Below are positions 27,677 to 52,720 of a stretch of 64,000 nt of DNA, piece by piece (position 1 is the stretch's first letter; each line of letters begins with the position of its first letter). This DNA is from Bacillota bacterium (GTDB lineage: Bacteria > Bacillota > Desulfotomaculia > Desulfotomaculales > Pelotomaculaceae): positions 1 to 64,000 of the forward strand of contig JAKPTB010000097.1 in assembly GCA_029555205.1 (NCBI GenBank). Direction: 5' to 3'. Below the pieces are notes generated by a model. The model saw only the letters and a program-made list of their open reading frames with translations, searched no databases and was not told the origin of the DNA. The translations under genes were made by a program, and so were the position numbers.

Positions 27677-28735
27677 TTGAAGACGTGGACTGTTCTAGTC
27701 ACAATAATATTTGTGCTAATTGCTTGCGCCGGATGCGGGCAAAAGTCAACATCTTTGCAGGATTTTTCTGGTGAAGAGTTTATCATGAACACCCTGGTTC
27801 GGATCCAGGTTATTTGTGAAGATGAAGAAAAGGGGAGGAAAGCCCTAAAGCAAGCCTTTGATGTATTTAGAAAAATTGATCATTTGACAAACAGGTTTCC
27901 CGAAGGTGAGCTGGCAACTTCCTCACCTGGTGATGTGCTTAATATTAACGGCAGCGCCGGGCTTAAGCCCGTCAAGGTCAGTGTCGACACTGTCAGAATC
28001 ATCCAGCGTTCACAGTACTATGCCCGCTTAACCGGCGGTGCCTTTGATATTACTATTGGACCAATAATGGACAACTGGGGTTTTGGAAAGGGCATACAAT
28101 ATGTTCCCGCTGATGAGGAAATTAGCAGGGCGCTAAGTCTGGTGGACTACCGCAAAGTCGAAGCTGACCCGGGTAAGGGGACGGTTTTTTTACCGGAGCC
28201 GGGGATGAGTTTAGATTTGGGCGGAGTTGCCAAAGGCTATGCCATGGATGAAGCAGTTAAGGCTCTAAGGGAAGCAGGCATGAAACATGCCCTGATTAAT
28301 GCCGGTGGATGTGTGTATGCCCTGGGGACCAGGCCGGACGGAGAGCCATGGCGTGTGGGTATCCAGGACCCCCGCAGCAACGGGGACATTGTTGCCATAT
28401 TATCTTTAAAGGATTCAGCGGCGGTGACATCGGGCGACTATCAGCGTTATTTTGAACAGGAAGGTGTTCGCTACCACCATATTATAGATCCATCCACCGG
28501 GAAGCAGGCGAGGGATCTGATCCAGACAACAGTTGTTGCAGAATCTGCTACAGATGCGGATATATTATCTACGGCGCTGTTTGTCCTGGGGCCCCGCCGC
28601 GGGATGAGTTTCGTCGAGGATCTGCCGGGTACCGGAGCTGTCTTGATCGGGCCGGATAAACTCGTGTCGGTTACGGCTGGTTTAATTGATCAGTTAACTT
28701 TCACCGGGAATGGCGGGTATCAAATTGTTGGATAA
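27677..28735 (+). CDS. apbE: FAD:protein FMN transferase (ApbE lipoprotein)
   Basis: A 352-residue lipoprotein (signal ending VLIACAGC). It belongs to the ApbE family, which attaches FMN covalently to threonines of extracytoplasmic flavoproteins. Visible signatures: GEEFIMNTLVRIQV at the start of the domain, GGAFDITIGPIMDNWGFG, GMSLDLGGVAKGYAMDEA, HALINAGGCVYALG, and the catalytic end SGDYQRYF ... HHIIDPSTGKQA ... ADILSTALFVLG. It is the first gene after the triple leader RNA. A plausible substrate, an FMN-binding lipoprotein, lies at 47040-47660 in the same gene row. TTG is the start, with a weak GTGGTG site. Confidence 0.93.
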   Translation: MKTWTVLVTIIFVLIACAGCGQKSTSLQDFSGEEFIMNTLVRIQVICEDEEKGRKALKQAFDVFRKIDHLTNRFPEGELATSSPGDVLNINGSAGLKPVKVSVDTVRIIQRSQYYARLTGGAFDITIGPIMDNWGFGKGIQYVPADEEISRALSLVDYRKVEADPGKGTVFLPEPGMSLDLGGVAKGYAMDEAVKALREAGMKHALINAGGCVYALGTRPDGEPWRVGIQDPRSNGDIVAILSLKDSAAVTSGDYQRYFEQEGVRYHHIIDPSTGKQARDLIQTTVVAESATDADILSTALFVLGPRRGMSFVEDLPGTGAVLIGPDKLVSVTAGLIDQLTFTGNGGYQIVG

Positions 28736-28932: not shown

Positions 28933-29532
28933 TTGCAAATTTTACAGAAAATGCTCGATAAATTTTCAGTATTTGATTTGATTATCATTGCGATGATTTC
29001 TGCCCTTGGTATTGCCAGCAAACCGGTTATTGTGCCCCTCAGCCATATTATCACCGGGCCTTTATTGATACCCGGTGGTGTCGTGGCGGGTGGTTTTTAC
29101 ATGTTGTGGCTGGTACTCGGGGCGGGAATCGTCGGCAAACCGGGTACAGCAACTTTAATGGGGGTTATCCAGGCCCTGGCGGTCTTCGGAACGGGGGTAT
29201 TTGGTTCCCACGGGGCGATGAGTTTGCTCAGTTACACCTTTCCCGGCTTTGCTGTGGACCTGTTGCTCCTTTTAATCAGACACCGCGTCTGCTGTCCCCT
29301 GTGCGCTTTTCTGGCAGGTGTGGCTGCCAACGTCTCAGGCTCTGCCCTGGTCAACATAATTTATTTCCGGCTTCCTTTGATACCTTTAATCCTATCTTTG
29401 GCTGTGGCAACTTTATCTGGTGGCCTCGGTGGCCTTGTTGCATTTAAAATAATCCAACTGGTTAAAAAGAATAATTGTTTTAAAGACATCCCAAGCTCAG
29501 ATTCTAAGCAGGAGAAAGAGCAGGAATCATAG
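28933..29532 (+). CDS. ECF transporter S component (substrate unknown)
   Basis: A 199-residue membrane protein with about six segments, beginning FSVFDLIIIAMISALGIASK, which is the typical start of energy-coupling-factor S components of the thiamine-precursor/YkoE-like kind. It contains the small-residue patterns needed to contact EcfT. The last 30 residues are a charged cytosolic tail. TTG start with GAGGAG about 10 nt upstream. The matching ATPases and T subunit are probably those at 52721-54927. The structured RNA directly upstream could report its ligand. Because the row begins with Moco-type riboswitches and includes ApbE, a pterin, flavin or related precursor is possible; I cannot decide. 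Confidence 0.75.
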   Translation: MQILQKMLDKFSVFDLIIIAMISALGIASKPVIVPLSHIITGPLLIPGGVVAGGFYMLWLVLGAGIVGKPGTATLMGVIQALAVFGTGVFGSHGAMSLLSYTFPGFAVDLLLLLIRHRVCCPLCAFLAGVAANVSGSALVNIIYFRLPLIPLILSLAVATLSGGLGGLVAFKIIQLVKKNNCFKDIPSSDSKQEKEQES

Positions 29533-29751: not shown

Positions 29752-32700
29752 ATGAAAAAGATTTCCCTGTTCTTAAGGGCTGTCTTAAGCTTGTTTCTGC
29801 TGGCTGGATTCCTAGGCCTGACGGCGCCCATAGCCGCCCTGGCTGAAACACCGGCGTTGAGGATCAGCGGAGACGGAGTGACGTATCCCTTGGAGTTTAC
29901 CCTGCCCCAGCTTGAAGCAATGGAGCAGTACCAGCATGTGTACAGTACCGTTAACACCTGGCCCACCAAGAAATGGTGTGTGGGAAGAGGCGTTAAGATA
30001 AGGGACCTGCTAAATCAGGCAGGACTCAGGGAAAATGCCAAAGTGCTTAAATTCGTAGCTAAAGACGGTTTCGTAGTGACGCTTACAGTTGAAGAATTAT
30101 TAAACAGTCCCCGTTATTATTTTCCTCGCTTAATGGACAATCATCCCGACGACGGCAGCATTCCCGGCTCTCCGGAAGGCGCCGAGGTGGTAGAGCCAAT
30201 TCTGGCCCTGGTCAGTGTGGAAGGCAGTGATGCTCCTGCCCATATGAACTCCATGGATTCCTTGAGGCTGATTTTTGGGCAGCGGGCGGTTACCGAGCAG
30301 ACCTGTAGCTCATTTGCCAAGTATGTCAATCAAATCGTGGTATTGACAACTGAGCCGGAGAAATGGGATAAACCGCAGGCAAACCCTCAAGGCGGGATCG
30401 TACCAGCGGGTTCCATGGTGGAATTGAGCAACGCCCGGATGGACGAAGATAAGATCTACTACACGACGGACGGCAGCACCCCTGACCTTAACAGTCCCAT
30501 TTACAACTGGATCTCCAGCCGCTGGTGGTCTACACGCCAGGATGATTTGTACAGGATTAACCACCCGGTTGAAATCACCGGGGATACAATCATCAAAGCA
30601 GTCACCATCGGTCCCGGTAAGAAGAATAGTGATGTGGTAACCTTCACCTATCAGGTGTCCGTTTTACCTCCTCCGCAGCTGCAGGCTGATCTTACAGATA
30701 ATGCAGTGGGCAGCGCAATCGAGCTGACCTTTGAGGACGACGCGGCCTGGCGGGCGGCAATTACCGGTGTCAGTGTGAACGGATCCCCGTTGGCTGCTGC
30801 TGATTATCTTGTGGAGGCTGGCAAACTGACCATCAAGGCGGGTGTGATCAGAAACCCCGGAGATTACAATATAACGGTTAAGGCCACCGGATACGGGGAA
30901 GCCGGGGTGCTTCAGACCATCCTGCCGGGTTTGAAGATACCACCGGAACTGACGGCTGACACCGTGGATAACATAGTCGGCAAGGCAATTGAGCTGACCT
31001 TTGAGGACGACACGGCCTGGCGGGCGGCAATCACCGGGGTAAGCGTGGACGGTGAGGCTTTAGACGCCGGGAAGTATTCCCTGGAGACCGCCGGCATAAT
31101 CATTATCAGTGCAGATGTTTTCAATAAAGCTGGGGATTACGTTATAACGGTCCATGCTTCCGGCTACCTGGACGCCGTTGTGACCCAAACAATCAAGACT
31201 AAAGGAGGCTCGACCGACCCCGGGGGAGAAGTGGTGCTGACCATAACAGGGGATGGGGTGAGCACTTCCAAAACCTTTACCCTGGCCCAGCTCCAGGCGA
31301 TGGAGCAGTATCAGCACGTCTACAGTGCTATCAACACCTGGCCCAGCAAGAAATGGTACGTGGGTAAAGGGGTCCAGTTGAGAGAACTGCTCAATTCGGC
31401 TGGGCTTAAAGGGAGTGCCAAACAAATTAAATTTATTTCCCGCGACGGTTACACAGTGACGTTGACGGTGCAGGAGTTGCTCAGGGACAAACGTTATTAC
31501 TTTCCCCAATTAAAGGCCAATGACCCCAATTTAGGTCATATACCCGGCTCTCCCATAGGGGCGGAAGAGGTAGAACCCATTCTCGCTCTTGTTAGTGCCG
31601 AAGGTACTGACAATCCTGCCTTTATGAATGACATGGATGCCCTGCTGTTGATGATCGGACAGCGGGCGGTAACCGAGCAAAACGGTCATTTGTTTACTAA
31701 GTATGTTGAAAAAATTGAAGTACTGACTGCTGACCCGGGAACATGGGATAAACCGAGAGCTGAGCCTGGAAGTGGCAGAGTGTCAGCAGGGACCCTGGTA
31801 AAACTGAGCAATAACAACAGCGACGCCGATAAGATTCACTACACCACGGACGGCAGCACCCCGACCATAGAAAGCCCCATGTATAACTGGATTGCAAGCA
31901 GGTGGTGGTCGTCGCGTTCGGATGAGTTGGATAGCATTAATAAGCCTATAGAAATAACAAAGAACACAACAATAAAGGCAATAACAATAGGCCCGGGTAA
32001 AAAGAACAGCGAAGTTGCCACCTTTACCTACACAGTTACAGGTGGGGCGGTGGACATAAGCGACAGGATCTCCCCCCTTTCAGGCGGTACTATTAGACTT
32101 GACGATGAAGCGGTGATTGAAATACCTGCCGGGGCGCTGGCCGGAACTGCTGCGGTGGAAGTAAAAATAGAGAAGGTGACCGCGCCTCCCGCAGCTCCGG
32201 AGGGTTTCAAGCTGGTTAGCGGAGTCTATGAGTTCAGCGTGGACGGTAAGTACAGCTACAAATTTAATAAGGAAGTGACGATTAAGCTCGGCTACGATCC
32301 TGAAGCTGTTGGTGAGGGTGAGACTCCGGCCATCCATTATTACGACGAGGCTCAAGGCCAGTGGGTAAACATAGGCGGTACTGTATCCGGCGCAAGCGTC
32401 GCCGTGCAGGTGGACCACTTCACCAAGTTCGCCGTGCTGGCGGCTGACCAAATAACAGTAGCTGCCGGTAAAATTTCACCTCTCACAGGCGGTACGATTA
32501 GTCTTGACAATGAAGCCTTTATCGAAATACCGGCCGGGGCGCTGGCCGGAACTGCTGTGGTGGAAGTAAAAATAGAGAAGGTGACTGCGCCTCCCGCAGC
32601 TCCTGAGGGTTTCAAGCTGGTTAGCGGAGTCTATGAGTTCAGCGTGGACGGCAAGTACAGTTACACATTTAATAAGGAAGTAACAATTGAGATCGGTTAT

Positions 32701-33399
32701 AATCCTGAAGTCGTGGGTGAGGGTGAGACACCGGCCATCCATTATTACGACGAGGCTCAAGGCCAGTGGATAAACATAAGCGGTACCGTATCCGGCGCAA
32801 GCGTCGTCGTGCAGGTGGACCACTTCACTAAGTTTGCCGTGCTGGCAGCAGAAAAAGAACAGGAGCAAACTCTGACGGATATAACCGGCCATTGGGCTTA
32901 CGAGATGATCAACAAGCTGGTGGGCATGGGATGCATCAGCGGCTACCCCGACGGTACCTTTAAGCCCGACAATGCCATTACCAGGGCTGAATTTACCGTT
33001 GTGCTGGTTAAGGCCTTCGGGCTTGAGAACACAGGCGGCCCGCTCTTTACCGATACCACCGGACACTGGGCCAAAGACTACATTGAAACAGCAGCTTCCC
33101 ACGGAATAGTCAATGGTTACGACGACGGTACCTTTGGGCCGGACGACCTGATCACCCGTGAGCAGCTGGCAGTAATGCTCGTCAGGGTGGCTGAATTGAC
33201 GCCGTTAGCGGGAGAGCTTCGTTTTGCCGACAGCGCGAGTATTTCCCCATGGGCGGCAGAAGGCCTTGCCACTGCGATAGGGTACGGCATCATCAAGGGT
33301 TATCCCGATCAGACCATCAAGCCCGGGGGCAGCGCCACCAGGGCCGAGGCTGTGACGGTTATTGTCAATACCTTGAATGTTCTCAATGGATTAACTTAA
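29752..33399 (+). CDS. Large SLH surface protein with two SUOX-like/chitobiase-C-like pairs
   Basis: A 1215-residue exported protein with a Sec signal (cleavage after IAALAE). Domain order: SUOX-like molybdopterin-oxidoreductase domain (about 33-200; QLEAMEQYQHVYSTVNTW, then WPTKKW), chitobiase-C-like domain (about 215-300; YYTTDGSTPDLNSPIYNW), two DUF1533-like modules (about 310-470), a second SUOX-like/chitobiase-C-like pair (about 490-760), two nearly identical ZU5-like domains (about 770-1035) and three SLH repeats (about 1045-1215) for binding to the cell-wall polymer. The SUOX-like domains lack the classical Mo-ligand Cys at the expected place. It shares this architecture with five more genes downstream. 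A surface redox or binding role is inferred. Confidence 0.85.
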   Translation: MKKISLFLRAVLSLFLLAGFLGLTAPIAALAETPALRISGDGVTYPLEFTLPQLEAMEQYQHVYSTVNTWPTKKWCVGRGVKIRDLLNQAGLRENAKVLKFVAKDGFVVTLTVEELLNSPRYYFPRLMDNHPDDGSIPGSPEGAEVVEPILALVSVEGSDAPAHMNSMDSLRLIFGQRAVTEQTCSSFAKYVNQIVVLTTEPEKWDKPQANPQGGIVPAGSMVELSNARMDEDKIYYTTDGSTPDLNSPIYNWISSRWWSTRQDDLYRINHPVEITGDTIIKAVTIGPGKKNSDVVTFTYQVSVLPPPQLQADLTDNAVGSAIELTFEDDAAWRAAITGVSVNGSPLAAADYLVEAGKLTIKAGVIRNPGDYNITVKATGYGEAGVLQTILPGLKIPPELTADTVDNIVGKAIELTFEDDTAWRAAITGVSVDGEALDAGKYSLETAGIIIISADVFNKAGDYVITVHASGYLDAVVTQTIKTKGGSTDPGGEVVLTITGDGVSTSKTFTLAQLQAMEQYQHVYSAINTWPSKKWYVGKGVQLRELLNSAGLKGSAKQIKFISRDGYTVTLTVQELLRDKRYYFPQLKANDPNLGHIPGSPIGAEEVEPILALVSAEGTDNPAFMNDMDALLLMIGQRAVTEQNGHLFTKYVEKIEVLTADPGTWDKPRAEPGSGRVSAGTLVKLSNNNSDADKIHYTTDGSTPTIESPMYNWIASRWWSSRSDELDSINKPIEITKNTTIKAITIGPGKKNSEVATFTYTVTGGAVDISDRISPLSGGTIRLDDEAVIEIPAGALAGTAAVEVKIEKVTAPPAAPEGFKLVSGVYEFSVDGKYSYKFNKEVTIKLGYDPEAVGEGETPAIHYYDEAQGQWVNIGGTVSGASVAVQVDHFTKFAVLAADQITVAAGKISPLTGGTISLDNEAFIEIPAGALAGTAVVEVKIEKVTAPPAAPEGFKLVSGVYEFSVDGKYSYTFNKEVTIEIGYNPEVVGEGETPAIHYYDEAQGQWINISGTVSGASVVVQVDHFTKFAVLAAEKEQEQTLTDITGHWAYEMINKLVGMGCISGYPDGTFKPDNAITRAEFTVVLVKAFGLENTGGPLFTDTTGHWAKDYIETAASHGIVNGYDDGTFGPDDLITREQLAVMLVRVAELTPLAGELRFADSASISPWAAEGLATAIGYGIIKGYPDQTIKPGGSATRAEAVTVIVNTLNVLNGLT
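32062..32855 (+). repeat. Tandem duplication of the ZU5-like domain
   Basis: Two copies of about 390 bp with a 405-bp period (32062-32450, 32467-32855) are nearly identical at DNA level, e.g. both contain GAAATACC, GCCGGGGCGCTGGCCGGAAC and GTGGACCACTTCAC. This is a recent internal duplication. Confidence 0.75.
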
Positions 33400-33619: not shown

Positions 33620-35284
33620 ATGTCATATTCAAGCTTAGTAAAAAAGTGCTGCAAATTCCCGGTTGCGCTCCTGGGTTTGCTGCTGGTTGCTTTTCTTAAC
33701 CTGACGGAGCCCGGGGCAGTTTTTGCCGAACAGTCGGACACGATTGAAATCACAGGCGAAGGCGTGACTACACCTGTGACATTAACCCTGGTCCAACTCC
33801 AGGCAATGGAGCAATATCAGCATGTATACAGTACAATAAACACCTGGCCCACAAAGAAATGGTACGTAGCCAGAGGTGTTAAACTGAGGGACCTGTTTGC
33901 CCTGGCCGGCCTCAAGGAAGATGCTACGCTGATCAGGTTTCTGTCGAAGGACGGCTTCGAGGTGACACTTACGGTCAAGGAGATGTTGCAGGACAAGCGT
34001 TACTATTATCCCCGTTTAATGGAGAATCATCCCAGCGATGGGAGTATCCCGGGCTCAACGGAGAAAGCGGTGGAGGTGGAGCCGATCCTGGCCCTGCTCA
34101 GTGCCGAGGACAGCAACAAACCCGCCGATATGAACGACAGGGATGCCTTACTTCTGCTTATGGGACAACGGGCGATTTCCGAGCAGACCAATAGTTTGTT
34201 TTTAAAATATGTAAATAAAATCGAAGTTCTTACCACCCCCCCGCAAAAATGGGATAATCCCAAAGCAGATCTGGATAGTGGAGAGGTGCCTGCGGGTTCT
34301 CTGGTAAGATTGAGCAATAAACGCAATGACGTTGATAAGGTTCATTACACGACGGACGGCAGTATACCAGATTTAAACAGCCCGATCTTCAACGTAAGCT
34401 CCAGCCGGTGGTGGGCGTTACGGCCTGATTTAGATCTTGTCAACCAGCCGATTAAAATCGACAAGGACACTGTAATTAAGGCCATCACCATTGGTCCCGG
34501 CAAGCTGGACAGTGATGTTGTCACTTTTACCTACAAGGCTGATTATTCGGGCAGGGCGGCTGAGCGGGCAAAACTCCCTGCCGCACCGCCCACCGATTTG
34601 ACCCTGGACCAGGATAAAGCCGAACTCAAAATCGGCAGCTCAATTATGCTGAGTGCCTCCCTAGGTTCGGGCAATGCCGGTGACACAGGCCTGGTCTGGA
34701 GTTCCAGCGACACCAGCGTGGCCACAGTGGATCACAACGGCCTGGTTACGTTGATCGGACCGGGTGCAGCCGTAATAACTGTGAAAACGGCAGACGGCAA
34801 TTTAGCGGCCACCTGCGTGGTGCGGAGCCCGGACCAGAACAGCAGGGAACAGGATGCTGAACCAGACTTTGTTCAACAGGATTTAGCCCTGGAAGAGTAC
34901 CAGATTGTGCCGCCGGCAGCGGAACCTGTGGAGCAACCGCCGGTGGAAGAGATAAACGCAGGTACCGAAAGTTCCGGCGAAGAGCCGGTAGAACCGGTTG
35001 AAACACTAGAAGTTGAAACAGCAGAACCGGAAGAGCCAATCGAAAACGGACAGTATTTGGCGGTGAAGGAGGATTTAGCCGCTGCAGCAGACACAAATGC
35101 CGCCGGGGAACAGACGGAAAACCAGCTTGTACAGGTATTCGAAATTTCGGTGGAGGCCGGGCTCTCGCAGCTGCCGGTGGAGCAGAACAATTTGGATTTT
35201 TATACGGCAGGATTCTTTGTTTTCCTGTTCCTTCTTGGTGCAAGCAGAAGATACATGGAGTACGTGAGGGAGGTTAAAAGGTGA
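33620..35284 (+). CDS. C-terminally anchored SUOX-like surface protein with Ig and Glu/Pro-rich stalk
   Basis: A 554-residue exported protein. After a signal peptide (ending AVFAEQ) come a SUOX-like domain (about 40-210), a chitobiase-C-like domain (about 220-310), a bacterial Ig-like Big_2 domain (about 323-404; VWSSSDTSVATVDHNGLVT), a long Glu/Pro-rich stalk (about 412-514) and one membrane segment near the C-terminus (FYTAGFFVFLFLLG) with a short basic tail. It is therefore anchored by its C-terminus with the domains outside. Its stop overlaps by 4 bp (GTGA) the start of an ExbB/TolQ-like gene, and an ExbD-like DUF2149 gene follows. The stalk recalls that of TonB, with inverted topology. 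I use ATG 33620 with GGAGGA upstream. Confidence 0.85.
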   Translation: MSYSSLVKKCCKFPVALLGLLLVAFLNLTEPGAVFAEQSDTIEITGEGVTTPVTLTLVQLQAMEQYQHVYSTINTWPTKKWYVARGVKLRDLFALAGLKEDATLIRFLSKDGFEVTLTVKEMLQDKRYYYPRLMENHPSDGSIPGSTEKAVEVEPILALLSAEDSNKPADMNDRDALLLLMGQRAISEQTNSLFLKYVNKIEVLTTPPQKWDNPKADLDSGEVPAGSLVRLSNKRNDVDKVHYTTDGSIPDLNSPIFNVSSSRWWALRPDLDLVNQPIKIDKDTVIKAITIGPGKLDSDVVTFTYKADYSGRAAERAKLPAAPPTDLTLDQDKAELKIGSSIMLSASLGSGNAGDTGLVWSSSDTSVATVDHNGLVTLIGPGAAVITVKTADGNLAATCVVRSPDQNSREQDAEPDFVQQDLALEEYQIVPPAAEPVEQPPVEEINAGTESSGEEPVEPVETLEVETAEPEEPIENGQYLAVKEDLAAAADTNAAGEQTENQLVQVFEISVEAGLSQLPVEQNNLDFYTAGFFVFLFLLGASRRYMEYVREVKR

Positions 35285-35937
35285 CAGTATCTATCCTGGC
35301 CCCGCTTAGAGACACAATGCATACTATTTCGTCCGGTTTGCTGATGCCCACCATAACTGTTCTACTGTTGCTGCTTGCTTTTTCGGCGGTTGAACTGGGT
35401 GGTCTGCTGGTGGAAACCCTGACAGAGCGGCGCAGGATGAGGGTTAATGTGCCGGATCTGGTGGAAGCCTTTCAGGGGAAGGGCGCCGATGAGATTAGAA
35501 AGGAGATTGAAAAGAGCAGCCTTTTCCGGCGCCAGAAAAAAGCCCTGGGCCAGTTAATCGACCACAGTGCTTTACCCGCCTCTTCCCTGCAGGCCCTGGC
35601 CCGCAAGCTGCTTTCCGGGGAAGAACTGCACTATGCCAGGATTACCAACAGGACTGACCTGGTGGCCCGTCTCGGACCTATGCTGGGCTTAATGGCCACG
35701 CTGATTCCACTGGGACCGGGGATGATCGCCCTGGGGCAGGGTGACACAAAAATTCTGGCAGAATCCCTGCTCACTGCTTTTGACGCTACGGTGACAGGGC
35801 TGGCCGCCGCCGGTGTTGCCTACGCCATCTCCCGGCTGCGGAAAAGATGGTACGAAGATTACTTGAGTTCCCTTGAAGCCCTGATGGAAAGCCTGTTGGA
35901 GGTGTTTACCCGTGCACAGTGGATTGAGGAGCAGTAG
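35281..35937 (+). CDS. MotA/TolQ/ExbB-like proton channel subunit
   Basis: A 218-residue membrane protein. The layout fits TolQ/ExbB: a first membrane segment (about 15-40), a long cytosolic helical part (about 45-120; RRRMRVNVPDLVEAF, FRRQKKALGQLI), and a closely spaced pair of membrane segments beginning RLGPMLGLMATLIPLGPGM and LTAFDATVTGLAAAGVAYAI, the conserved ExbB block in which polar Thr residues line the channel. The start overlaps the upstream surface-protein gene by 4 bp and the end overlaps the DUF2149 gene by 26 bp, so the three are translated together. In diderms this family powers TonB- or Tol-type work; here the organism appears to have no outer membrane. Confidence 0.88.
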   Translation: MTVSILAPLRDTMHTISSGLLMPTITVLLLLLAFSAVELGGLLVETLTERRRMRVNVPDLVEAFQGKGADEIRKEIEKSSLFRRQKKALGQLIDHSALPASSLQALARKLLSGEELHYARITNRTDLVARLGPMLGLMATLIPLGPGMIALGQGDTKILAESLLTAFDATVTGLAAAGVAYAISRLRKRWYEDYLSSLEALMESLLEVFTRAQWIEEQ

Positions 35938-36226
35938 ACGCAGGCTGGCTGAAGACGTCAGTCCTCTGGAGGGCGCCATCAATATCGTGGATGCCATGCT
36001 GGTGTTTGCCTGCGGGCTGATGCTCTCCCTGGTCTTGCACTGGAACGTCGACCTGGAGCAGATAGGGAAGCGGGTCAATTTGGAGCGCGGCCAGGAGGTA
36101 ACCCAGTTGCCGGAGATACGGGATGATTTAATTGAGACTGAGAACCAGGGCAAGCTTTATGAAAAGATGGGCACGGTCTACAAAGATCCCTCTACAGGAC
36201 AGTTGTTTATGCTGACTGGTGAGTAG
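35912..36226 (+). CDS. DUF2149 protein, ExbD-like partner
   Basis: A 104-residue protein with one membrane segment (INIVDAMLVFACGLMLSLVL, about 23-42) preceded by a short basic cytosolic end and followed by an extracellular part of about 60 residues ending DPSTGQLFML. The Asp at the start of the membrane segment (NIVDAMLVF) is placed like the essential Asp of ExbD/TolR. DUF2149 genes are known next to ExbB/TolQ-like genes in methanogenic archaea, from memory. It overlaps the ExbB-like gene by 26 bp. I infer an ion-driven stator pair acting on the C-anchored protein encoded just upstream. Confidence 0.82.
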   Translation: MHSGLRSSRRRLAEDVSPLEGAINIVDAMLVFACGLMLSLVLHWNVDLEQIGKRVNLERGQEVTQLPEIRDDLIETENQGKLYEKMGTVYKDPSTGQLFMLTGE

Positions 36227-36386
36227 ATCAGGTTTATTGTCATCCAGCGCATACGGGACCGGGGTTTAGTAGTTGTATAACCAGCTTGTAGGATTTAAGC
36301 GCGCTGCTTTAGCAGAATGCACGGCTGGAGCGACCCGGGGTCTGATGCAGATATGTAGTTTAATCACAGAAGGGAGAGTAAAAGCA

Positions 36387-37946
36387 TTGCAAGTCAAAAT
36401 TGAACGAAAGAACTGGTTTAATGTTCTGATGGTTGCCGTACTGGGGCTGCTGCTTTTCGGTATGTCCAGCCTGGCTACGCCCGGGGCAGCCCTCGCCGCT
36501 GAGCCCGGTACTCCTGATTCACTGGAAATTACAGGAGATGGTGTGACCACGCCTTTAGTTTTAACCAGGGAACAGCTCCAGGCCATGGAACAATACCAGC
36601 ACGTTTACAGTGCCATCAATACCTGGCCTACCAAGAAGTGGTATGTCGGCAAAGGTGTTAAGCTAAGGGATCTGATGGAACTGGCGGGGATGACTGAGGA
36701 GGCCAAACTGCTCAAGTTTACATCCTCTGACGGCTACACAGTCAATCTTACAGTCCGGGAGCTGTTTGAGGACAAGCGTTATTATTTCCCGGGTCTCAAG
36801 GGCAAAAATCCCAATGACGGTGACGGGCATGTCCCCGGCTTTTCCGAAGGTGCGGTAGAGGTGGAGCCAATCCTCGCCCTGCTTAGTGTGGAAGGCAGCG
36901 ACAATCCTGAATATATGAATGAATTGAACTCATTGCTGCTGATGCTGGGGCAGCGGGCAGTAACGGAACAGAATGGCAATTTGTTCAGCAAGTATGTCAA
37001 TAAGATTGAAGTACTTACCACTGAACCGGAAAAATGGGACAGCCCCCGGGCAAATCCGGACAGCGGTGTGGTCTCCCCGGGAGCCATGATCGCCCTGAGT
37101 AACGACAACATGGATGACGACAAGATTTATTACACCACGGACGGCAGTACCCCAACCTTGAACAGCCCTATCTACAACTGGATTGCCAAACGGTGGTGGT
37201 CGGTGCGGAGTGATGTTCTGGGAACGATTAATAGTCCGGTGGGACCAATTAACAAGACCACAACCATTAAGGCCATAACAATTGGACCGGGCAAGTACGA
37301 TAGTGATGTAGTAACCTTCACCTACGAGGTTGCCGGGGATGTTTCCGGAGTTGAAGACGGGATGGAAGAACCCGGCGCGGAGGACCAGGACAAAGAAGAA
37401 CAAAAGCAGGAAGAGCCGGTGGCCCTGAATGATATCACAGGTCACTGGGCCCAGGACAGTATTGATACGCTGGTGAAGCAGGGTTGCATCAGCGGCTACC
37501 CCGACGGCAGCTTCAAACCCGAAAACAGGATCACCCGCGCTGAATTTGTAGCCGTGCTGGTGAAAGCGTTCCAGATTGAGAGCAATGGCGGAAAGGTCTT
37601 TACCGATACAGCGGCCCACTGGGCCAGGGACTACATTGCTGCAGCAGCGGCAAAGGGTCTGGTCAGCGGTTATGCCGGGGGGAACTTTGGCCCGGATGAC
37701 CCGGTTACCCGCGAGCAGATGGCCGTAATGATCGTCAAGGCAGCGGGATTGGCGCCGGCGGCTGGAGCCCCCGGGTTTGCCGACAGTGCAGACATTTCCG
37801 GATGGGCCGTGGAGGCCATAGCCACCGCAACGGAAAACGGGATTATCAAAGGCTATTTAGATAACACCATCCGGCCCAAAGGCAATGCCACCAGAGCCGA
37901 GGCCGTGACGGTCATAATGAATGCCCTGAATAAAATAAACACTTAA
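36387..37946 (+). CDS. SLH surface protein with SUOX-like and chitobiase-C-like domains
   Basis: A 519-residue exported protein (signal ending ALAAEP). Order: SUOX-like domain (about 48-215; AMEQYQHVYSAINTWPTKKW, GQRAVTEQNGNLF), chitobiase-C-like domain (about 225-315; KIYYTTDGSTPTLNSPIYNW), acidic linker (about 320-345), and three SLH repeats (about 348-519; DITGHWAQDSIDTLVKQGCI). It is a shorter relative of the 1215-residue protein at 29752. I chose TTG 36387, which has GGGAGAG 8 nt upstream; the longer frame from 36273 adds residues that do not look like a signal peptide. Likely located on the wall or S-layer; catalytic activity is unproven because the Mo-ligand Cys is not evident. Confidence 0.85.
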   Translation: MQVKIERKNWFNVLMVAVLGLLLFGMSSLATPGAALAAEPGTPDSLEITGDGVTTPLVLTREQLQAMEQYQHVYSAINTWPTKKWYVGKGVKLRDLMELAGMTEEAKLLKFTSSDGYTVNLTVRELFEDKRYYFPGLKGKNPNDGDGHVPGFSEGAVEVEPILALLSVEGSDNPEYMNELNSLLLMLGQRAVTEQNGNLFSKYVNKIEVLTTEPEKWDSPRANPDSGVVSPGAMIALSNDNMDDDKIYYTTDGSTPTLNSPIYNWIAKRWWSVRSDVLGTINSPVGPINKTTTIKAITIGPGKYDSDVVTFTYEVAGDVSGVEDGMEEPGAEDQDKEEQKQEEPVALNDITGHWAQDSIDTLVKQGCISGYPDGSFKPENRITRAEFVAVLVKAFQIESNGGKVFTDTAAHWARDYIAAAAAKGLVSGYAGGNFGPDDPVTREQMAVMIVKAAGLAPAAGAPGFADSADISGWAVEAIATATENGIIKGYLDNTIRPKGNATRAEAVTVIMNALNKINT

Positions 37947-38007: not shown

Positions 38008-38919
38008 ATGAAACCAAAAACATGTTTTCCTAAAAAATATCTGGTTATTTGCCTCGTTTTCCTGTTCAGCGTCCTTCTGACAGCAGGCTGTATCGGGAGC
38101 GGGGAACCGCGGAAGGAGAACAGCGGGGCTGAAAGTCAACAAGTCAGTGGCCAGGCCGTCGTGATCAGCGGCGACGGTGTGAGCAAGGAAACCCGGCTGA
38201 CCCTGGAAGAGATGCTGGAACTGCCCGGCGCCCGGGTCGAACAGGTTTATTCCACCGTCAACAACTGGCCGGCCCCGAAGAAATATGCGGCGAAGGGGGT
38301 AAAAGTGGCTGCGCTGCTGGAAGCAGCAGGCATCAAAGCTGAGGCCAGAGGCATTACTGTTAAGGGTAAGGATGGTTTCCAGTGGTCCTTTACCCGGGAA
38401 CAACTATTGGAGACCCCCAGATACTACTTCCCGGGGGTAATGTCGGGGGATCCATCCGGCGCCGAGCCGGTGGAGCCCATCATTGCCTACGCTTATAAAG
38501 AGAATAGCGATAATCCCGGGGAGGCCGAAAGGGACGATTTATGCCTGATTATGCCCCAGGCCAATGTCAGGGAGCAGACCAACCATACCTTTGTCAAAGG
38601 TGTCAGCGAGATTCAGGTGGTTTTGGAGGACCCGGGAAAATGGGAGAAAGCCGGCGTCTTTCCCGGGGTGGGAACTATTGCTGCCGGAGATACGGTGAAA
38701 CTGCAGCATAAAGATTTGGGCAAGGTTAAAATGTATTATACTCTGGATGGCTCTGATCCGACCGAAGCAAGCACACTCTATAATCCCAGTACCTATCAGC
38801 CTGATTTAAACAAGCCCATCAGGATCGACAGGGACACCACGATCAAGGTTTTAGTCCGGGGCTTCGGCAAACATGACAGTGATATTGCCGAGTTTCATTA
38901 CAAAATTAAAGGATCATAG
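38008..38919 (+). CDS. Lipoprotein with SUOX-like and chitobiase-C-like domains
   Basis: A 303-residue lipoprotein (lipobox LLTAGC near residue 28). The mature part has a SUOX-like domain (about 48-205; RVEQVYSTVNNWPAPKKY, VKVAALLEAAGI, GKDGFQWSFTREQLL) and a chitobiase-C-like domain (about 215-303; KMYYTLDGSDPTEASTLYNP, then RIDRDTTIKVLVRGFGKHDS). It is membrane-anchored, unlike the SLH relatives, and so could bridge between membrane and wall. ATG start with AGTGAAAAGGA upstream. It is one of four lipoproteins in the row that could relay electrons or ligand between membrane and surface proteins; that role is inference. Confidence 0.85.
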   Translation: MKPKTCFPKKYLVICLVFLFSVLLTAGCIGSGEPRKENSGAESQQVSGQAVVISGDGVSKETRLTLEEMLELPGARVEQVYSTVNNWPAPKKYAAKGVKVAALLEAAGIKAEARGITVKGKDGFQWSFTREQLLETPRYYFPGVMSGDPSGAEPVEPIIAYAYKENSDNPGEAERDDLCLIMPQANVREQTNHTFVKGVSEIQVVLEDPGKWEKAGVFPGVGTIAAGDTVKLQHKDLGKVKMYYTLDGSDPTEASTLYNPSTYQPDLNKPIRIDRDTTIKVLVRGFGKHDSDIAEFHYKIKGS

Positions 38920-40572: not shown

Positions 40573-43500
40573 GTGCGAGTTGTTAGTAATAACGGGTCAG
40601 GTAAACTGGTTGTACTGCTTACTGTGGTGGCAATGTTGTTCACACTGTTCATGTTTGCCCCCAATGATGCAAGCGCCGCTACTACCAGCCTCACCATCAC
40701 CAAATATGCCTCTGACAAAACCACAGTTCTTGATCAGAGAACGGTGACTTATCAGGAATTAAGGGATGGTCAACTCAGTGATGGGACTCCCATACCCATA
40801 ATGGGTGACGGGTCTACGCATTATTATCATCAGGGCCCGGTCTTTATCGATGATCCCGATCCGGATACCCAGGAATTGCTCCGTTGGAACGAGGCAGAAG
40901 ATAAAAACTGGGATACCAAGGATATGGGAGCTGTGAAGGGCACCAACGTAAAAGACCTCTGCGAACTGGTGGGAGGTATGGCGGAGGGCGACACGCTCCA
41001 GATCAAAGCATCAGATGGTTTTAAGAAGGAGTATGCCTATAAAAACGTTTACCAGTACTCGGATCGTGAAGGTCCCATGGTGGTCTGCTGGTATAAAGAC
41101 GGGAAGTACCCGGATAGCGGCTACACTGACGGGATGCGCCTGGTCTGGTTTGCCGAAGCCACATACAAAGAAGGCCCAACCGATGTCATAGGTTTACCCT
41201 CGGGATACTATAACGTCTTCGGCAACTGGGACTGGCGTTTAGCTGCAGAATCCAAATACTGGTACTATTATAATAACGAATATCCCACTACCACCGGCTT
41301 ATCCGTACAGAATGTTAACGCGCTGGTAATATACAGCACCCAGGCTCCCAAAGCAACCTGGTACGTTGATGACTCCGGTGAAGCCGACTTCACCACCATC
41401 CAGGCGGCTGTGACGGCGGCCAATGCTGGTGATACCATTATCGTCAAAGACGGTACTTATACCGAGAACGTGGTCGTGGACAAGAGTCTGGTAATCAAGT
41501 CCGAGAATGGTGCGGCCCAGACGATCGTTCAGGCGGCCGACCCGAACGCCGATGTGATCAAAGTAACGGCGACGGATGTTACCATTGAAGGTTTTACTGT
41601 TACTGGAGCAACTTCAATGGGCAAATCGGGTATCTATCTTGCCGGCCAGTCCAGTGGCTCCTGCACCATAAAAAATAACTTGAGTACAGGAAACAACCAG
41701 GGAATAGCGGTTTCTTCATCCGGCAACACGGTTTCCGACAACACCTGCACTCTCAGTGGAAGATATGGCCTTTACCTTAGCAATGCCACCGGTAACCTCA
41801 TAACCAACAACACGTGTTCGAACAACACAGAGGGATCGGGTTTTGCCCTCTACCTGGCGGACAATGCCGATAACAATACCGTCAGCGGCAACGTCGCGGA
41901 CTCCAATAAAATCGGCATAAGGGTCAAGAACGCAGACTCCAATATAATCTTTGAAAACACTTCCTCAAATAACGAATATGGCCTGGAACTGGCTACCGGC
42001 TCTACCGGCAATGTTTTCTACCTGAACAACTTTACCGGTAATACCCTAGGCCAGAAAACATGGAATTTTAACGCGGTCGCCGGCAACATCTGGAGTTCCC
42101 AGGAGGAAAAGACTTACCAGTATAACGGCACCCAGTATACCGGCTATGTGGGTAATTACTGGAGCGACTACGACGGTGTGGACGCGGACGGCAACGGCAT
42201 CGGTGACACGCCATATCAGACAGTCCTGACCGATACTGACAACTATCCCCTGATGGGTCTGTACCAGGATGGTGTCATCGAGGGCTCCGTACCGGCAGTG
42301 GACGTGCTCTACGACGGGACAGTGGCCCTGGCTCCTGGCGAAACCTTCAGTGTGACTGCCTACAACTCGGGAACGGCTTATACCGTCAGCGAGACCACAC
42401 CCCTTGGGGCTCTGCAGGCAGCCGCAACGGCTGGCGGCTTCTCCTATGACGTCACCGACAAGAATTACGAGAACTCTGGCGCTCTGCTGTTGGACAATAT
42501 AGGAGACTACCATTTTGTCAAAGGCGGCAGCAAGTGGCTGGCCTACGTCAACGGCGTCTATAAGGACGGCTATAACAACCCCGCCGGGGCCCTGAACCTG
42601 ATTGAACTGGTTGACGGTGACAGGGTTGAGTTTTACTATGCCGCCGGGATCAGCGATCCCACCGACCTTGATGCAGTCAAGGCAGCGGCTACCGCTGCGG
42701 TAAAAACCGTCGCCTCATTGGCCCCGGCAATGGACGTGCTCTACGACGGAACAGTCGCTCTGGCTCCCGGTGAAACCTTCAGCGTGACCGCTTACAACTC
42801 GGGAACGGCTTATACCGTCAGCAAGACCACACCCCTTGGGGCTCTGCAGGCAGCTTCAATTGCCGGCGGTTTTACCTATGCCGTCACCGATAAGAATTAC
42901 GGGAACTCGGGCGCTCTGCTGTTGGACGATATAGGAGACTACCCCTATGTCAAAGGCGGCAGCCAGTGGCTGGCCTACGTTAACGGTGTCTACAAGGACG
43001 GCTACAACAACCCCGAGGGAGCCCTAAACCTGATTGAACTGGTTGACGGGGACAGGGTTGAGTTTTACTATGCTGCCGGGATCAGCGATCCCACCGATCT
43101 TGATGCAGTCAAGGCAGCGGCTACCGCTGCGGTAAAAACCGTCGCAGCCACAGGGGTTGCTCCCACTGATTGGACTCTGCAGCTTACCGGAGCAAGGCAG
43201 GAAACCGTAACCAAGGCCTACTTCGAACAAGGTCTTGCCTGTTCCCCAACTCACCGGGTGTCCTGGACCGACGAAGACGGTAATGAATGGGCAGGCATGC
43301 CGCTCTGGCTTTTGGTCGGCATGGTCGATGATGACCCCGATGGCGCCAGCCATTTCAGCTTTAACAACGAACTCGCCGCCCAGCATTATGAAGTTAATGT
43401 TATAGGCGGAGACGGGTGGAAGGCTACCCTGGACAGTGCTGCAATAGCCCGCAACAACGGTTACATCGTTGCCAACACCCTTAACGGGGAACCGCTGCCG

Positions 43501-45915
43501 CTCAAGACCGAAGCGGGCAAGGGCTGCTGGCCGCTTCACCTGAAGGGTCCGGCCGTTTTAGCCGGAGCTCAGGTAGGCAACATCGTTAAAATTGAACTGT
43601 CAGGTCTGCCCCAGCCGCCAGCAGGATGGACCCTGGAGATGATTGGAGATATAGGGGACACCATCACTCAAGAGGAATTTGAGAAAGGACTTGCCTGCAC
43701 AGGTTCAGGCCACTACAAGGAATGGACTGATAATGAAGGCAACGTCTGGTCCGGCGTGCCCCTGTGGGTGCTCCTGGGTGCGGTGGACGACATTGAGACA
43801 AGCGGCCACTGGGATTTCAATAATGACCGGGCTGCAGGCTATTCTGTGAAAGTGGTTGCAGAAGATGGTTATGCCAGGACCTTTGAAGGCAAGGATGTAG
43901 CCCGCAGTGACGATTATATCATTGCCAATAAATGCAACGGTGCCCCCCTTACTGATGATTTAGCACCGTTGCGTCTGGTAGGGGCCGGTGTCGCCAAGGA
44001 GGATGGCTCTCTTAGCGGCGCCAGCGTTAGCAAAATAGCCAGGATCGAAATACCCGAACTGCAGACACCGGAGCCCGGACCCGGCAGTTGGAACCTTAAG
44101 CTGTTCGGCAAGGTCAATGATGTTATTTCCCAGGCGGAATTTGAGGCCGGCCTGGCCTGTCCCAATTCCGGCCACCTGGTAGAATGGACCGACAGCGACG
44201 GCAATGTCTGGTCGGGAATTCCCCTCTGGTTATTGACAGGCTGGGTGGATGACCGGTATCCCCACGCTTACAACGCTAACCAGGCTATTGATGGCTACAC
44301 GATCCTGGTAAAAGCCGGAGACGGCTACACCAAGGATTTCAGCAGCGAGGACGTGGCCAGGAGCAACGACTATATCATTGCCAATAAATGCAACAATGAA
44401 CCCCTTAGCGATAAAGCATGGCCGCTTCGTCTGGTGGGCGACGGTGTTGCCAATGATGGAAAACTTACCGGCACCAGCGTCGGCAATATTGCGGAAATTG
44501 AACTGACATCCTTTGGTACTTCCCAGCCTATACCTGAATTGCGGATTGTCAAATATGGTGAAGATCAAACAACCATCATTGCTGAAGTTACGGTGGATTA
44601 CCTGTGGATGGAAAATGAGAGCGGTTTTGACGTCATTGGTGACGGGACTACGGTATACCGCTATGAAAGTATCACAAACAACCCGGATGACATATGGGAT
44701 GCTGAGGAAACCTATCCCGGCGGCTTCAAGGTCGCAAATGCCGTGAAGGGCACCCGGATCAGAGACCTTTGTGGGCTTGTAGACGGCATGGGAGCAGGCA
44801 CTGAAATAGTACTGGTCGCCAGAGACGGTTACGAGACAAGGCTGCCCTATAGCTCCATCTATCCAGATCCTTCGGTTCAAGAACGCCAGGGGGACGCCAT
44901 TCTGGCCTGGTGGGCCGATGGAAAATACGTGCCGTATTATGACGAAGGTATGCGTTTATTCTTTACCCCGGACGACCACATCTATGGCCAGTGGGATATG
45001 CACGAGACGCTGCCTGAAAAATACTGGCACTGGTATGGCGCTGGTGGTATTATGTATCCGTCCTGTGCCGGCCTGGCAGCGAAGTGGATAACAGAAATCA
45101 GAGTTTACACCAAGCCTGCCGGCGACTGGACCCTGGAGCTAGATGGCCGGGATATCGGCGGTATAAAATATGATGTCAACAAAACCTATTTCGAACAGGC
45201 TCTCGCCTGTCAGTTCGGCGCCAATCACAAGGCAACCTACACCGATTCAGAAGGACAGGTCTGGGAAGGCATGCCCCTGTGGTTCCTGGCCGGGTTTGTC
45301 GATGACGCCGACCAGCATTCCTATAACGCCTTTAATAATGAGCTGGCTTTAGCCGGGTATCAGGTTGTCATTACCGCGGCCGATGGCCATTCGGTAACTA
45401 TCGACAGCAGGGATATTATCCGGAACAACAACTATATTGTCGCCAATACCCTGAACGGGGCGCTCATACCCGAGTCCGACGACAACTGGCCGCTCCGGCT
45501 GGTTGGACCTGCTGTCAGCGGGGAAACATCGATATCAAAAATTGTCAGCATCAAGCTGGTAGGCTCTGAGCCTGGTAAACCGAGCTATACGTTAACACCG
45601 CAGGAGGATGCAGCCTACACTGCGGGTAAGACATCCGAGGGCATCGATTTTATGACCGTAAAAGACGGTGTCTCAGGGTTCAAGTACTTTACCGTAGGCG
45701 TCACTCCGGTGGTTTCCCATGATGGCAAGGAAACAGTGGTCTTTACTCATCTAAGAAACGGCAGCCAGCTTGGACTTAATGCCACCAGGGCTGATTTCGA
45801 CCAGGTAAATACGGCCCAGGCAGGCTTTAATGTCAAAGCAGGCGACGAGGTTAAGGTTTTCATTGTGGATGAACTGACTAACGATCCTGACCATAACCCT
45901 GTGATCCTGCAGTAA
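40573..45915 (+). CDS. Giant mosaic surface protein: SUOX-like repeats, NosD-like beta helix, DUF4430
   Basis: A 1780-residue exported protein (signal ending NDASAA). Order: SUOX-like variant domain (about 35-255), right-handed beta-helix of NosD type (about 260-565; GNLITNNTCSNNTEG, DNADNNTVSGNVADSN), two DUF4430 (transcobalamin-C-like) domains (about 575-855), three SUOX-like domains of a second type (about 860-1315), another first-type domain (about 1320-1515), a second-type domain (about 1516-1670) and a C-terminal domain shared with the phosphatase at 51136. All four second-type domains keep a Cys in LAC before WTDxxGxxWxGxPLWxL, a credible Mo/W-ligand position. No SLH or sortase motif. 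GTG start with GGAGGAG 7 nt upstream. Confidence 0.85.
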   Translation: MRVVSNNGSGKLVVLLTVVAMLFTLFMFAPNDASAATTSLTITKYASDKTTVLDQRTVTYQELRDGQLSDGTPIPIMGDGSTHYYHQGPVFIDDPDPDTQELLRWNEAEDKNWDTKDMGAVKGTNVKDLCELVGGMAEGDTLQIKASDGFKKEYAYKNVYQYSDREGPMVVCWYKDGKYPDSGYTDGMRLVWFAEATYKEGPTDVIGLPSGYYNVFGNWDWRLAAESKYWYYYNNEYPTTTGLSVQNVNALVIYSTQAPKATWYVDDSGEADFTTIQAAVTAANAGDTIIVKDGTYTENVVVDKSLVIKSENGAAQTIVQAADPNADVIKVTATDVTIEGFTVTGATSMGKSGIYLAGQSSGSCTIKNNLSTGNNQGIAVSSSGNTVSDNTCTLSGRYGLYLSNATGNLITNNTCSNNTEGSGFALYLADNADNNTVSGNVADSNKIGIRVKNADSNIIFENTSSNNEYGLELATGSTGNVFYLNNFTGNTLGQKTWNFNAVAGNIWSSQEEKTYQYNGTQYTGYVGNYWSDYDGVDADGNGIGDTPYQTVLTDTDNYPLMGLYQDGVIEGSVPAVDVLYDGTVALAPGETFSVTAYNSGTAYTVSETTPLGALQAAATAGGFSYDVTDKNYENSGALLLDNIGDYHFVKGGSKWLAYVNGVYKDGYNNPAGALNLIELVDGDRVEFYYAAGISDPTDLDAVKAAATAAVKTVASLAPAMDVLYDGTVALAPGETFSVTAYNSGTAYTVSKTTPLGALQAASIAGGFTYAVTDKNYGNSGALLLDDIGDYPYVKGGSQWLAYVNGVYKDGYNNPEGALNLIELVDGDRVEFYYAAGISDPTDLDAVKAAATAAVKTVAATGVAPTDWTLQLTGARQETVTKAYFEQGLACSPTHRVSWTDEDGNEWAGMPLWLLVGMVDDDPDGASHFSFNNELAAQHYEVNVIGGDGWKATLDSAAIARNNGYIVANTLNGEPLPLKTEAGKGCWPLHLKGPAVLAGAQVGNIVKIELSGLPQPPAGWTLEMIGDIGDTITQEEFEKGLACTGSGHYKEWTDNEGNVWSGVPLWVLLGAVDDIETSGHWDFNNDRAAGYSVKVVAEDGYARTFEGKDVARSDDYIIANKCNGAPLTDDLAPLRLVGAGVAKEDGSLSGASVSKIARIEIPELQTPEPGPGSWNLKLFGKVNDVISQAEFEAGLACPNSGHLVEWTDSDGNVWSGIPLWLLTGWVDDRYPHAYNANQAIDGYTILVKAGDGYTKDFSSEDVARSNDYIIANKCNNEPLSDKAWPLRLVGDGVANDGKLTGTSVGNIAEIELTSFGTSQPIPELRIVKYGEDQTTIIAEVTVDYLWMENESGFDVIGDGTTVYRYESITNNPDDIWDAEETYPGGFKVANAVKGTRIRDLCGLVDGMGAGTEIVLVARDGYETRLPYSSIYPDPSVQERQGDAILAWWADGKYVPYYDEGMRLFFTPDDHIYGQWDMHETLPEKYWHWYGAGGIMYPSCAGLAAKWITEIRVYTKPAGDWTLELDGRDIGGIKYDVNKTYFEQALACQFGANHKATYTDSEGQVWEGMPLWFLAGFVDDADQHSYNAFNNELALAGYQVVITAADGHSVTIDSRDIIRNNNYIVANTLNGALIPESDDNWPLRLVGPAVSGETSISKIVSIKLVGSEPGKPSYTLTPQEDAAYTAGKTSEGIDFMTVKDGVSGFKYFTVGVTPVVSHDGKETVVFTHLRNGSQLGLNATRADFDQVNTAQAGFNVKAGDEVKVFIVDELTNDPDHNPVILQ
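42298..43161 (+). repeat. Near-identical tandem DUF4430 copies
   Basis: Two units of 432 bp (starting 42298 and 42730) share long identical blocks, such as GACGTGCTCTACGACGG, ACCACACCCCTTGGGGCTCT and CAAGGCAGCGGCTACC. This points to a recent tandem duplication or gene conversion inside the gene. Confidence 0.8.
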
Positions 45916-46999: not shown

Positions 47000-47039
47000 T
47001 GCAAGTAAACATTTGATACCTGATTGGAGTTGGGAAAGT

Positions 47040-47660: not shown

Positions 47661-47709
47661 AGACTAGGGAAAGGGACCTTATAGAGTAAAGGCCCGGGAG
47701 TGTCTGATT

Positions 47710-48585: not shown

Positions 48586-48681
48586 ATCAGGCGGGCAGGC
48601 CGGGAGACGGATCTGCTCCTGCCGCCGGCTGACAAAGGCAGCGCAACGTACCATGATTGAGCGTGGAGGGCAGGTTAGCTG

Positions 48682-49197: not shown

Positions 49198-49544
49198 AAA
49201 ATAATTTTGTTTCCTAAAATTAATAACCCTTACAGGCGGAATGAAGTATTTAAGCTACTTAAGCCCCTGCTGCCTGCAGGCCGGTTGGTTGAAAAAGGGG
49301 GGTGGACTGGTTTTGTTCTCAGCAAACAGGGATTAAGCGCTGTCAAGCCTTGTTAAGTTTTGACGGGTCAGGTAACCGCTTATGCCCTCCCTGCTCGTCC
49401 ACTGGGGGTAAAGTAGATACCTGCCAGCTTTGCTTGAACCCTGTTTTACGATACCGGGATAGGGTAAAAAGAGGTAATAAGAAGGAACTATATTTAATTG
49501 GAACGGGATACTTGAAGCCAATTAAAAGAGAGGAGGATTCTCCA
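49198..49544. other. Intergenic region, nothing clear
   Basis: About 350 bp. The frame of the next gene is open through most of it but has no signal peptide or ribosome binding site before 49545. I see no structured RNA. Confidence 0.4.
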
Positions 49545-52701: not shown

Positions 52702-52720
52702 CGGTAGAGGGGGCGGCTGT

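Follow-up and report, generated by a model that had tools for sequence, protein, structure and literature searches.

In the TonB-ExbB-ExbD system a channel of the ExbB type works with a one-helix partner that carries an aspartate in the membrane, while TonB, anchored at its N-terminus, reaches an outer-membrane receptor. Beside its single membrane helix and disordered stalk TonB possesses a strand-prone juxtamembrane motif, the D-box, which is recruited to both halves of the ExbD dimer (PMC10907165; this paper and those cited below are cited from excerpts). The D-box site is two-fold symmetric, thus a strand could be bound in either direction (PMC12215075). In the haem operon hmuYRSTUV of Bacteroidota the ExbB-like protein is HmuU and the DUF2149 protein is HmuV (PMC10434189); HmuS is an extracytoplasmic, CobN-like haem de-chelatase with membrane helices at both ends (PMC13227078, PMC12583661), and HmuUV is described in the literature as powering the receptor HmuR rather than HmuS (PMC10100974, PMC12583661). 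The role of Gram-positive ExbB proteins was left open in a 2022 review, where it 'remains to be tested experimentally' (PMC9389320), and a 2025 survey of force transducers describes new partners of the von Willebrand factor A (vWA) type, with no mention of DUF2149 in the excerpts available (PMC12204202). Here we describe three overlapping genes, called A, B and C, in a stretch of 64,000 nucleotides (the window; positions 1 to 64,000 of contig JAKPTB010000097.1, assembly GCA_029555205.1) from a Bacillota bacterium of the family Pelotomaculaceae. We favour, with reserve, the view that their products form one machine, in which an ExbB-DUF2149 motor, fed by the ion-motive force, would drive a surface protein anchored at its C-terminus.

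Gene A (33620-35284; ATG start, 554 amino acids), gene B (35281-35937; GTG, 218 amino acids) and gene C (35912-36226; GTG, 104 amino acids) lie, like their domains and the neighbouring SLH, SUOX/CHB and ECF genes given below, on the + strand. Inspection of the open reading frames (ORFs) confirmed that all three frames are open, with overlaps of 4 bases between A and B and 26 bases between B and C, as stated in the initial annotation, a reading made from the letters of the window. That annotation had called B a MotA/TolQ/ExbB-like channel protein, and B indeed matches MotA_ExbB (PF01618) with 32 bits at a cut-off of 22.9 (E 1.2e-7). The profile of B also matches MotA structures (E 0.002), a conserved stretch being aligned with the 'ATLYG' of MotA, and in the alignment (23 rows) T170 and G173 of the last membrane helix are invariant; we take T170 to be the pore threonine. 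C is a DUF2149 protein (PF09919, E 8e-9, above the cut-off) with one membrane helix that bears Asp27 (codon at 35990-35992); the alignment of homologues keeps D27, like N24, in every one of its 58 rows. The family and the ExbD-like membrane aspartate had been claimed from the start and stand, but the comparison with ExbD goes no further: Pfam gave no match of C to ExbD (PF02472), DUF2149 being the only family at E <= 0.1. DUF2149 was therefore not identified as ExbD, despite the aspartate near the start of its helix, and its low-confidence model shows no folded ExbD/TolR-like domain; its profile had no match among the sequences of the PDB.

The product of gene A appears from its sequence to be a surface protein with a signal peptide, its ectodomain outside and its anchor at the C-terminus. 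The single C-terminal membrane segment claimed at the outset, at about residues 527-541 (35198-35242) and followed by a basic tail, is seen in the AlphaFold2 model as one helix (518-553). The last 62 residues (35096-35284) constitute a module of about 60 residues, made up of a juxtamembrane strand, the helix and the basic tail, which proved to be conserved.

A profile search found DUF2149 in 43 of the 113 genomes of the order, its copies falling in two score groups: 17 at 64-82 bits (canonical) and 33 at 23-39 bits (divergent), the latter including that of the window. ORFs were surveyed in 41 loci of the order, namely the window and 40 further stretches (33 divergent, 8 canonical). Nearly all contained ExbB-like genes, and the divergent loci had an upstream gene ending in the same module of about 60 residues. 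When named genomes were scanned with the B alignment, the best 80 of the 201 loci contained a B ORF in 78 cases, DUF2149 in 77 and a module-ended gene in 58 (one per locus). In 55 of 58 non-redundant loci with the anchor, B immediately followed the module gene, and in 28 the two overlapped by 4 bases. This A-before-B order is beyond chance, and the homologous loci show that the three genes are not routinely apart.

The module is also specific for genomes that have this motor. A model of the module alone, run over the same 113 genomes, matched 28, precisely those with divergent DUF2149; the 15 genomes that have only canonical DUF2149 gave no match, nor did the 70 that lack DUF2149. Of the 37 modules 32 adjoin a divergent DUF2149 gene (32 of the 33 copies of that kind), a further one sits at the end of a contig, and the remaining four have other positions. 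Three of the latter belong to intact A genes without adjoining B or C (L235-L237), in genomes that have the motor elsewhere, which is expected if several partners can share one motor. The fourth (genome G023, locus L238, 6899-19190) is a weak match in a 921-residue protein encoded beside a 3008-residue one; the pair have tails like 'VFEIVKDAV' and 'IFEIVKKAV', are C-anchored and lie distant from the motor genes of that genome.

Furthermore, module and motor co-vary. In a set of 54 loci the distances of the module correlated with those of B and C with Spearman coefficients of 0.75 and 0.71, whereas the ectodomains of the same genes gave 0.49 and 0.51; the difference between module and ectodomain in their correlation with B was 0.26 (bootstrap 5-95% range 0.13-0.38). 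Ectodomain and module diverge equally (median distances 0.69 and 0.68), thus the difference is not a rate effect. The ectodomain itself is variable: Big_2 was found in 24, Oxidored_molyb in 14 and CHB/Fn3_assoc in 13 of the 31 A proteins scanned, and other domains in single members. The A protein of Desulfovirgula thermocuniculi (L117) has a fragment of CobN as its ectodomain (E 4e-55, profile positions 719-975 of 1090), while the module and B are of the A type, B being nested inside the clade of the window's B. Judged from these sequences, this is an ectodomain swap in which anchor and motor were retained.

C-anchored neighbours are not restricted to proteins with this module. In 84 full-context loci (non-redundant, identical B proteins dropped, at least 4.5 kb on either side of B) a C-anchored partner was present in 73: 38 with the A-type module, 22 of the CobN type and 13 others, the last class being defined by a hydropathy filter alone. 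A cruder tally of C-anchored neighbours (90 of 117 loci) missed several anchors detected by profile, and the count of 73 of 84 is the better one. Near motors 96 of 293 genes were C-anchored, compared to 17 of 359 far from them (Fisher p 6e-22), in a set which has some loci repeated (e.g. L147/L232 and L148/L216) and leans to the window's kind. Among the other C-anchored ectodomains near motors were Peripla_BP_2 (L222), DUF3344 (L226) and CARDB/PQQ repeats (L219); the first belongs to an archaeal metal-chelate-binding protein (7549-9180), which has its own C-terminal anchor and is encoded directly upstream of ExbB/DUF2149. In these sequence comparisons the same pairing of motor and C-anchored protein recurs across anaerobic bacteria and archaea, and it may represent a widespread cell-surface machine. 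In a tree of 120 B proteins the window falls inside a 78-row group (support 100/98) that takes in every one of the 59 A-type rows and no row of the CobN type, the direction of change between the two types depending on the root. The A type thus looks like one lineage of the motor family, other lineages of which adjoin C-anchored CobN proteins. The host genome is of the Desulfotomaculaceae type within Bacillota: the nearest relatives of the window's B are from Pelotomaculum and other Desulfotomaculaceae (best identity 83%).

The two kinds of partner have a common element before the helix. In A it is the strand motif V-Q-V-F-E-I-S (residues 504-510, 35129-35149), and in the helix that follows G540 is invariant (42 alignment rows). 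The pattern [FY]E[MIL], 5-32 residues upstream of the C-terminal helix, occurred in 36 of 58 and 7 of 9 A-type tails and in 21 of 28 CobN/HmuS-type tails. Of 88 other hydrophobic-ended genes more than 3.5 kb away only 2 had it (1.2 expected), and shuffling the CobN tails gave an expectation of 0.2. The glutamate of the motif has a median position of -17 relative to the helix in both A-type and CobN/HmuS-type partners.

The canonical loci used for comparison came from Bacteroidota (L206-L208), archaea and Bacillota. In these loci 28 of 35 CobN-like ORFs end in a membrane helix, the rest being fragments, masked, or without a terminal helix. The archaeal and Bacillota loci, which consist of CobN, DUF2162, ExbB and DUF2149 genes, resemble the window in having a C-anchored partner with [FY]E[MIL] or a similar pre-helix element, and differ in the ectodomain and in the motor clade. 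Like the window, the Hmu system has genes of the ExbB type and DUF2149 together with a C-anchored partner whose large ectodomain is outside (PMC10434189, PMC13227078, PMC12583661). The Hmu partner is a CobN-like haem de-chelatase, whereas A has SUOX (sulfite oxidase fold), CHB and Big_2 domains; the Hmu set also includes HmuT (DUF2162) and an outer-membrane receptor, neither of which was found for the window. DUF2162 was absent from the 30 proteins of the window that were scanned, a search that did not extend to the rest of the genome, and a limited literature search turned up no mention of this family. The initial annotation was right in coupling a C-anchored protein, which turns out to be conserved, specific and equipped with a dedicated C-terminal module, to ExbB/DUF2149, but its description as Ton-like does not name the nearest kin, which is HmuS-HmuU-HmuV. 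We found, in the same limited search, no published account of a C-anchored partner for ExbB/DUF2149.

The comparison also bears on the Hmu system itself. Because monoderm and archaeal loci contain the same ExbB-DUF2149 pair, and HmuS-type proteins have a C-terminal anchor with the common motif, the sequences suggest that HmuS is at least one of the partners of HmuUV. A wider proposal, to which we give tentative credence, somewhat short of even, is that ExbB-DUF2149 represents a pan-prokaryotic 'inverted Ton' class present in monoderms, archaea and Bacteroidota, which would drive strand-held C-anchored proteins with freely exchanged ectodomains (CobN/HmuS chelatase, SUOX/Ig, substrate-binding protein and others); HmuUV would then drive HmuS through its C-terminal anchor, not HmuR. 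When HmuS lacked its membrane helices and HmuTUV was absent, it performed only 1-2 turnovers in vitro, for which other causes are offered in that study (PMC12583661); this limit of the truncated enzyme would fit a need for HmuUV. If the proposal is true, the current view that HmuUV serves the outer-membrane receptor comes into question.

In the ectodomain of A, Pfam recognizes Fn3_assoc/CHB_HEX_C_1 (E 1e-14 / 9e-12) and Big_2 (E 2e-10), in accordance with the chitobiase-C-like and Ig domains first proposed; the SUOX-like domain of that proposal is weak by sequence (Oxidored_molyb, sub-threshold at 18.5 bits) and clear in the model. The AlphaFold2 model (40 alignment rows, mean predicted local distance difference test score, pLDDT, 76) consists of a signal helix, ordered domains between residues 41 and 402, disorder at 407-522 and the C-terminal helix. 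In VIA-align searches with this modelled structure the SUOX region (about residues 26-207; the domain at about 41-207, 33740-34240) matched sulfite dehydrogenases and oxidases with Z 13-15. For the ectodomain the values were Z 15.4, root-mean-square deviation (rmsd) 4.0 and 140 aligned residues with 2xts, and Z 14.1, rmsd 2.4 and 140 aligned with 3hbg. The Mo-ligating cysteine was not found: the cysteines of A are at residues 10, 11 and 399 only, the SUOX domain is cysteine-free and hence lacks the usual thiolate ligand of molybdenum. A was therefore rejected as a molybdoenzyme of the sulfite oxidase type, although it has the fold. The domain also matches pterin-binding PruR (Z 12-13; 7kou with Z 13.1, rmsd 2.6, 125 aligned). 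PruR proteins, like A, have a SUOX fold without the Mo-ligating cysteine, but they are free periplasmic signalling proteins rather than membrane-anchored partners of a motor (PMC13259868). The NCBIfam names obtained for A (diheme GEGP, intimin) were discarded, the scores being far under the cut-offs. The Ig-like Big_2 domain (residues 321-408, 34580-34843; Z 14 to 7quz) is followed by a stalk (residues 405-517, 34832-35170), with pLDDT below 50 over 407-522. The stalk was announced as Glu/Pro-rich; it is acidic and disordered and contains 24 glutamates among 113 residues but 10 prolines, which makes glutamate rather than proline its characteristic residue.

On these grounds we propose the following mechanism. 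A pentamer of B, of the ExbB/MotA type, together with C, whose Asp-bearing helix would sit in the pore, would make up a motor of the cytoplasmic membrane that is driven by ions. A would be the work-bearing partner, its C-terminal helix packing on B as that of TonB does on ExbB, and the outer part of DUF2149 would hold its V-F-E-[IM]-S strand much as the ExbD dimer holds the D-box of TonB (PMC10907165). Like TonB, A has one helix, a disordered stalk and a strand-prone juxtamembrane motif. Unlike TonB it is C-anchored, no TonB domain was detected in it by Pfam, and no outer-membrane receptor was found. The chain direction would be inverted, A running towards the membrane, which is no obstacle if, as with the D-box site, the strand can be bound in either direction (PMC12215075). 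The acidic stalk would then transmit the motor cycles to the SUOX/Ig ectodomain; this domain could hand on or release a small ligand collected by paralogous S-layer proteins and lipoproteins, and the ligand might be taken up by energy-coupling factor (ECF) or FecCD-type importers. For ExbB relatives in cells that have no outer membrane, whose task is still debated (PMC9389320), the conserved module offers a concrete partner. The module of A is also an experimental handle, as it can be deleted, swapped or tagged.

Several observations weigh against this mechanism or weaken its support. The 80 best loci were chosen by likeness to the window's B, thus A-type loci were favoured. In Petroclostridium (L098) and in L128 A does not adjoin B and lies downstream, and in G023 the motor has no A beside it. 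Eleven of the 84 full-context loci, including that of Anaerovorax (L122) and several from archaea, have no recognised C-anchored partner; among these eleven L142 has a downstream gene with a similar tail, L218 a masked CobN, and L097 no DUF2149. The co-variation of module and motor can also reflect shared ancestry alone. Seven of the 28 CobN-type tails (3 from Bacteroidota, 4 archaeal) are without the strict motif and have variants around V-[ML], and the [FY]E[MIL] pattern was fixed after tails of both kinds had been viewed. A profile comparison of the A anchor with the CobN tail, which is independent of that pattern, was weak (probability 19%, P 0.0012), yet it aligned the motif columns; by profile the homology of the two is suggestive only. 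Finally, the single-chain model of DUF2149 has low confidence (pLDDT 59) and shows a helix at 18-50, disorder at 50-84 and only a small hairpin, which makes the strand-acceptor surface uncertain and is the weak point of the docking proposal.

Other explanations of the locus must be weighed against this mechanism. The C-terminal module could be a sorting signal of the LPXTG or PEP/PGF-CTERM-like kind, composed of motif, membrane helix and basic tail, so that A would be cut and attached to the wall or to a lipid, and the ExbB/DUF2149 genes would merely be co-transcribed. The three-part architecture matches such signals and the locus is rich in surface proteins with S-layer homology (SLH) domains, but the motif of sorting signals as a rule lies directly beside the C-terminal helix, whereas here it is about 17 residues away. 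Moreover, the module co-varies with B and C and is confined to the 28 genomes that possess the motor (37 copies, against none in the other 85), and there was no sortase among the 30 window proteins scanned, a scan that left out some window genes and was not extended to sortases genome-wide; we consider a sorting signal rather improbable. A different possibility is that B and C form a channel which powers or gates import together with an ECF or FecCD transporter, A being a passive membrane-proximal receptor without force transfer. The recurrence of importer genes near A-type loci (PF09819/EcfT in 14 and FecCD/binding-protein genes in 3 of 44) and of paralogous binding domains (46 of 56 loci) would fit such an arrangement. 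It appears unlikely all the same, for the importer clusters are absent from 28 of the 44 A-type loci within the DNA examined, whereas A is nearly always present, and the ECF and FecCD systems are already powered by ATP.

The locus might also be a normal Ton/ExbBD system that came from a diderm and is vestigial in its monoderm host, and Ton systems of monoderms were indeed termed likely non-functional in the 2025 survey (PMC12204202). Neither TonB-dependent receptors (PF00593) nor Omp85 turned up in any of 4 genomes from the genus; the controls (E. coli and others) were positive. This agrees with the initial view that no outer membrane is to be expected. One ExbD gene is present in the window's own metagenome-assembled genome (MAG), on contig C37, and in none of three congeners; as the MAG is 8.5% contaminated, it was given no weight. 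DUF2149 has no ExbD match, and the trio is conserved across Bacillota with the channel residues strictly kept, so that it is not in decay. The vestigial explanation was rejected on the lack of receptor and Omp85 in the genus, and we hold it to be very improbable. As a further alternative, A could act as an enzyme or a chaperone in redox processes outside the cell; the Pfam matches to ApbE, FMN_bind, Fer4_5 and NusG_II in the window would then point to electron transfer by flavins and not to the capture of nutrients. FMN_bind-type genes were seen in just 7 of 80 loci and the SUOX domain of A has no cysteine, so this alternative is quite improbable; it would alter the cargo and leave the motor model intact.

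The genes around the trio are compatible with ligand capture at the surface. Upstream are a PF09819 membrane protein of the ECF substrate-component type (28933-29532) and an SLH-anchored surface protein (29752-33399) with two A-like SUOX/CHB units and two Shr-like haemoglobin-interacting domains (PF07550, E 5e-54), which make a link to haem possible. Downstream follow an SLH-anchored paralogue of the A ectodomain (36273-37946), a lipoprotein-like paralogue with SUOX and CHB (38008-38919), a further SUOX and CHB protein (46061-46999), and ECF transporter ATPases with a CbiQ-type T component (52721-54927), all identified by Pfam. Paralogues of the A ectodomain elsewhere in the locus are a feature of 46 of 56 A loci, the window having two SLH-anchored and several secreted or lipoprotein-like ones. 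Of the 44 A-type loci of at least 10 kb counted above for importer genes, 39 have further paralogues. The arrangement resembles a relay that leads from the S-layer to an importer and in which the motor partner stands at the membrane. The PruR precedent suggests, by analogy, a pterin-like ligand, and the CobN and Peripla_BP_2 partners in the same way suggest a metal chelate or tetrapyrrole; none of the cargo candidates considered (pterin, tetrapyrrole, flavin, vitamin) is proven.

The regions 27677-28735 and 47013-55895 contain ApbE, FMN_bind, Fer4_5, ECF A/A/T, NusG_II and Hpre_diP_synt_I genes, a set which resembles the machinery of extracellular flavinylation or flavin-based electron transfer. 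A 1780-residue surface protein with beta-helix/NosD and SUOX-like stretches is encoded at 40573-45915, and proteins with a similar C-terminus recur elsewhere (L083, 12654-19676; L119, 12646-17322; and others).

A few loci have unusual arrangements. In Pelotomaculum terephthalicicum JT (L044/L097, genomes G101/G507) 70 bases separate A from the DUF2149 gene downstream of it and no ExbB-like ORF was detected between the two, and an intact ExbB-like gene without DUF2149 stands alone on another contig, which is either a real split or an assembly fault. Locus L063 (9613-11230) has an intact A and, after it, an ORF of 96 residues with matches to ExbB as well as DUF2149; the motor genes seem to have collapsed here to this remnant, and the genome has two other copies. 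The Clostridia-like A-B-C locus on a 4.8-kb contig of a Parabacteroides MAG (L120, JAQWBH010000361.1) is probably a binning error. The cultured species with the locus include Sporotomaculum syntrophicum, Syntrophomonas wolfei and Clostridium ragsdalei.

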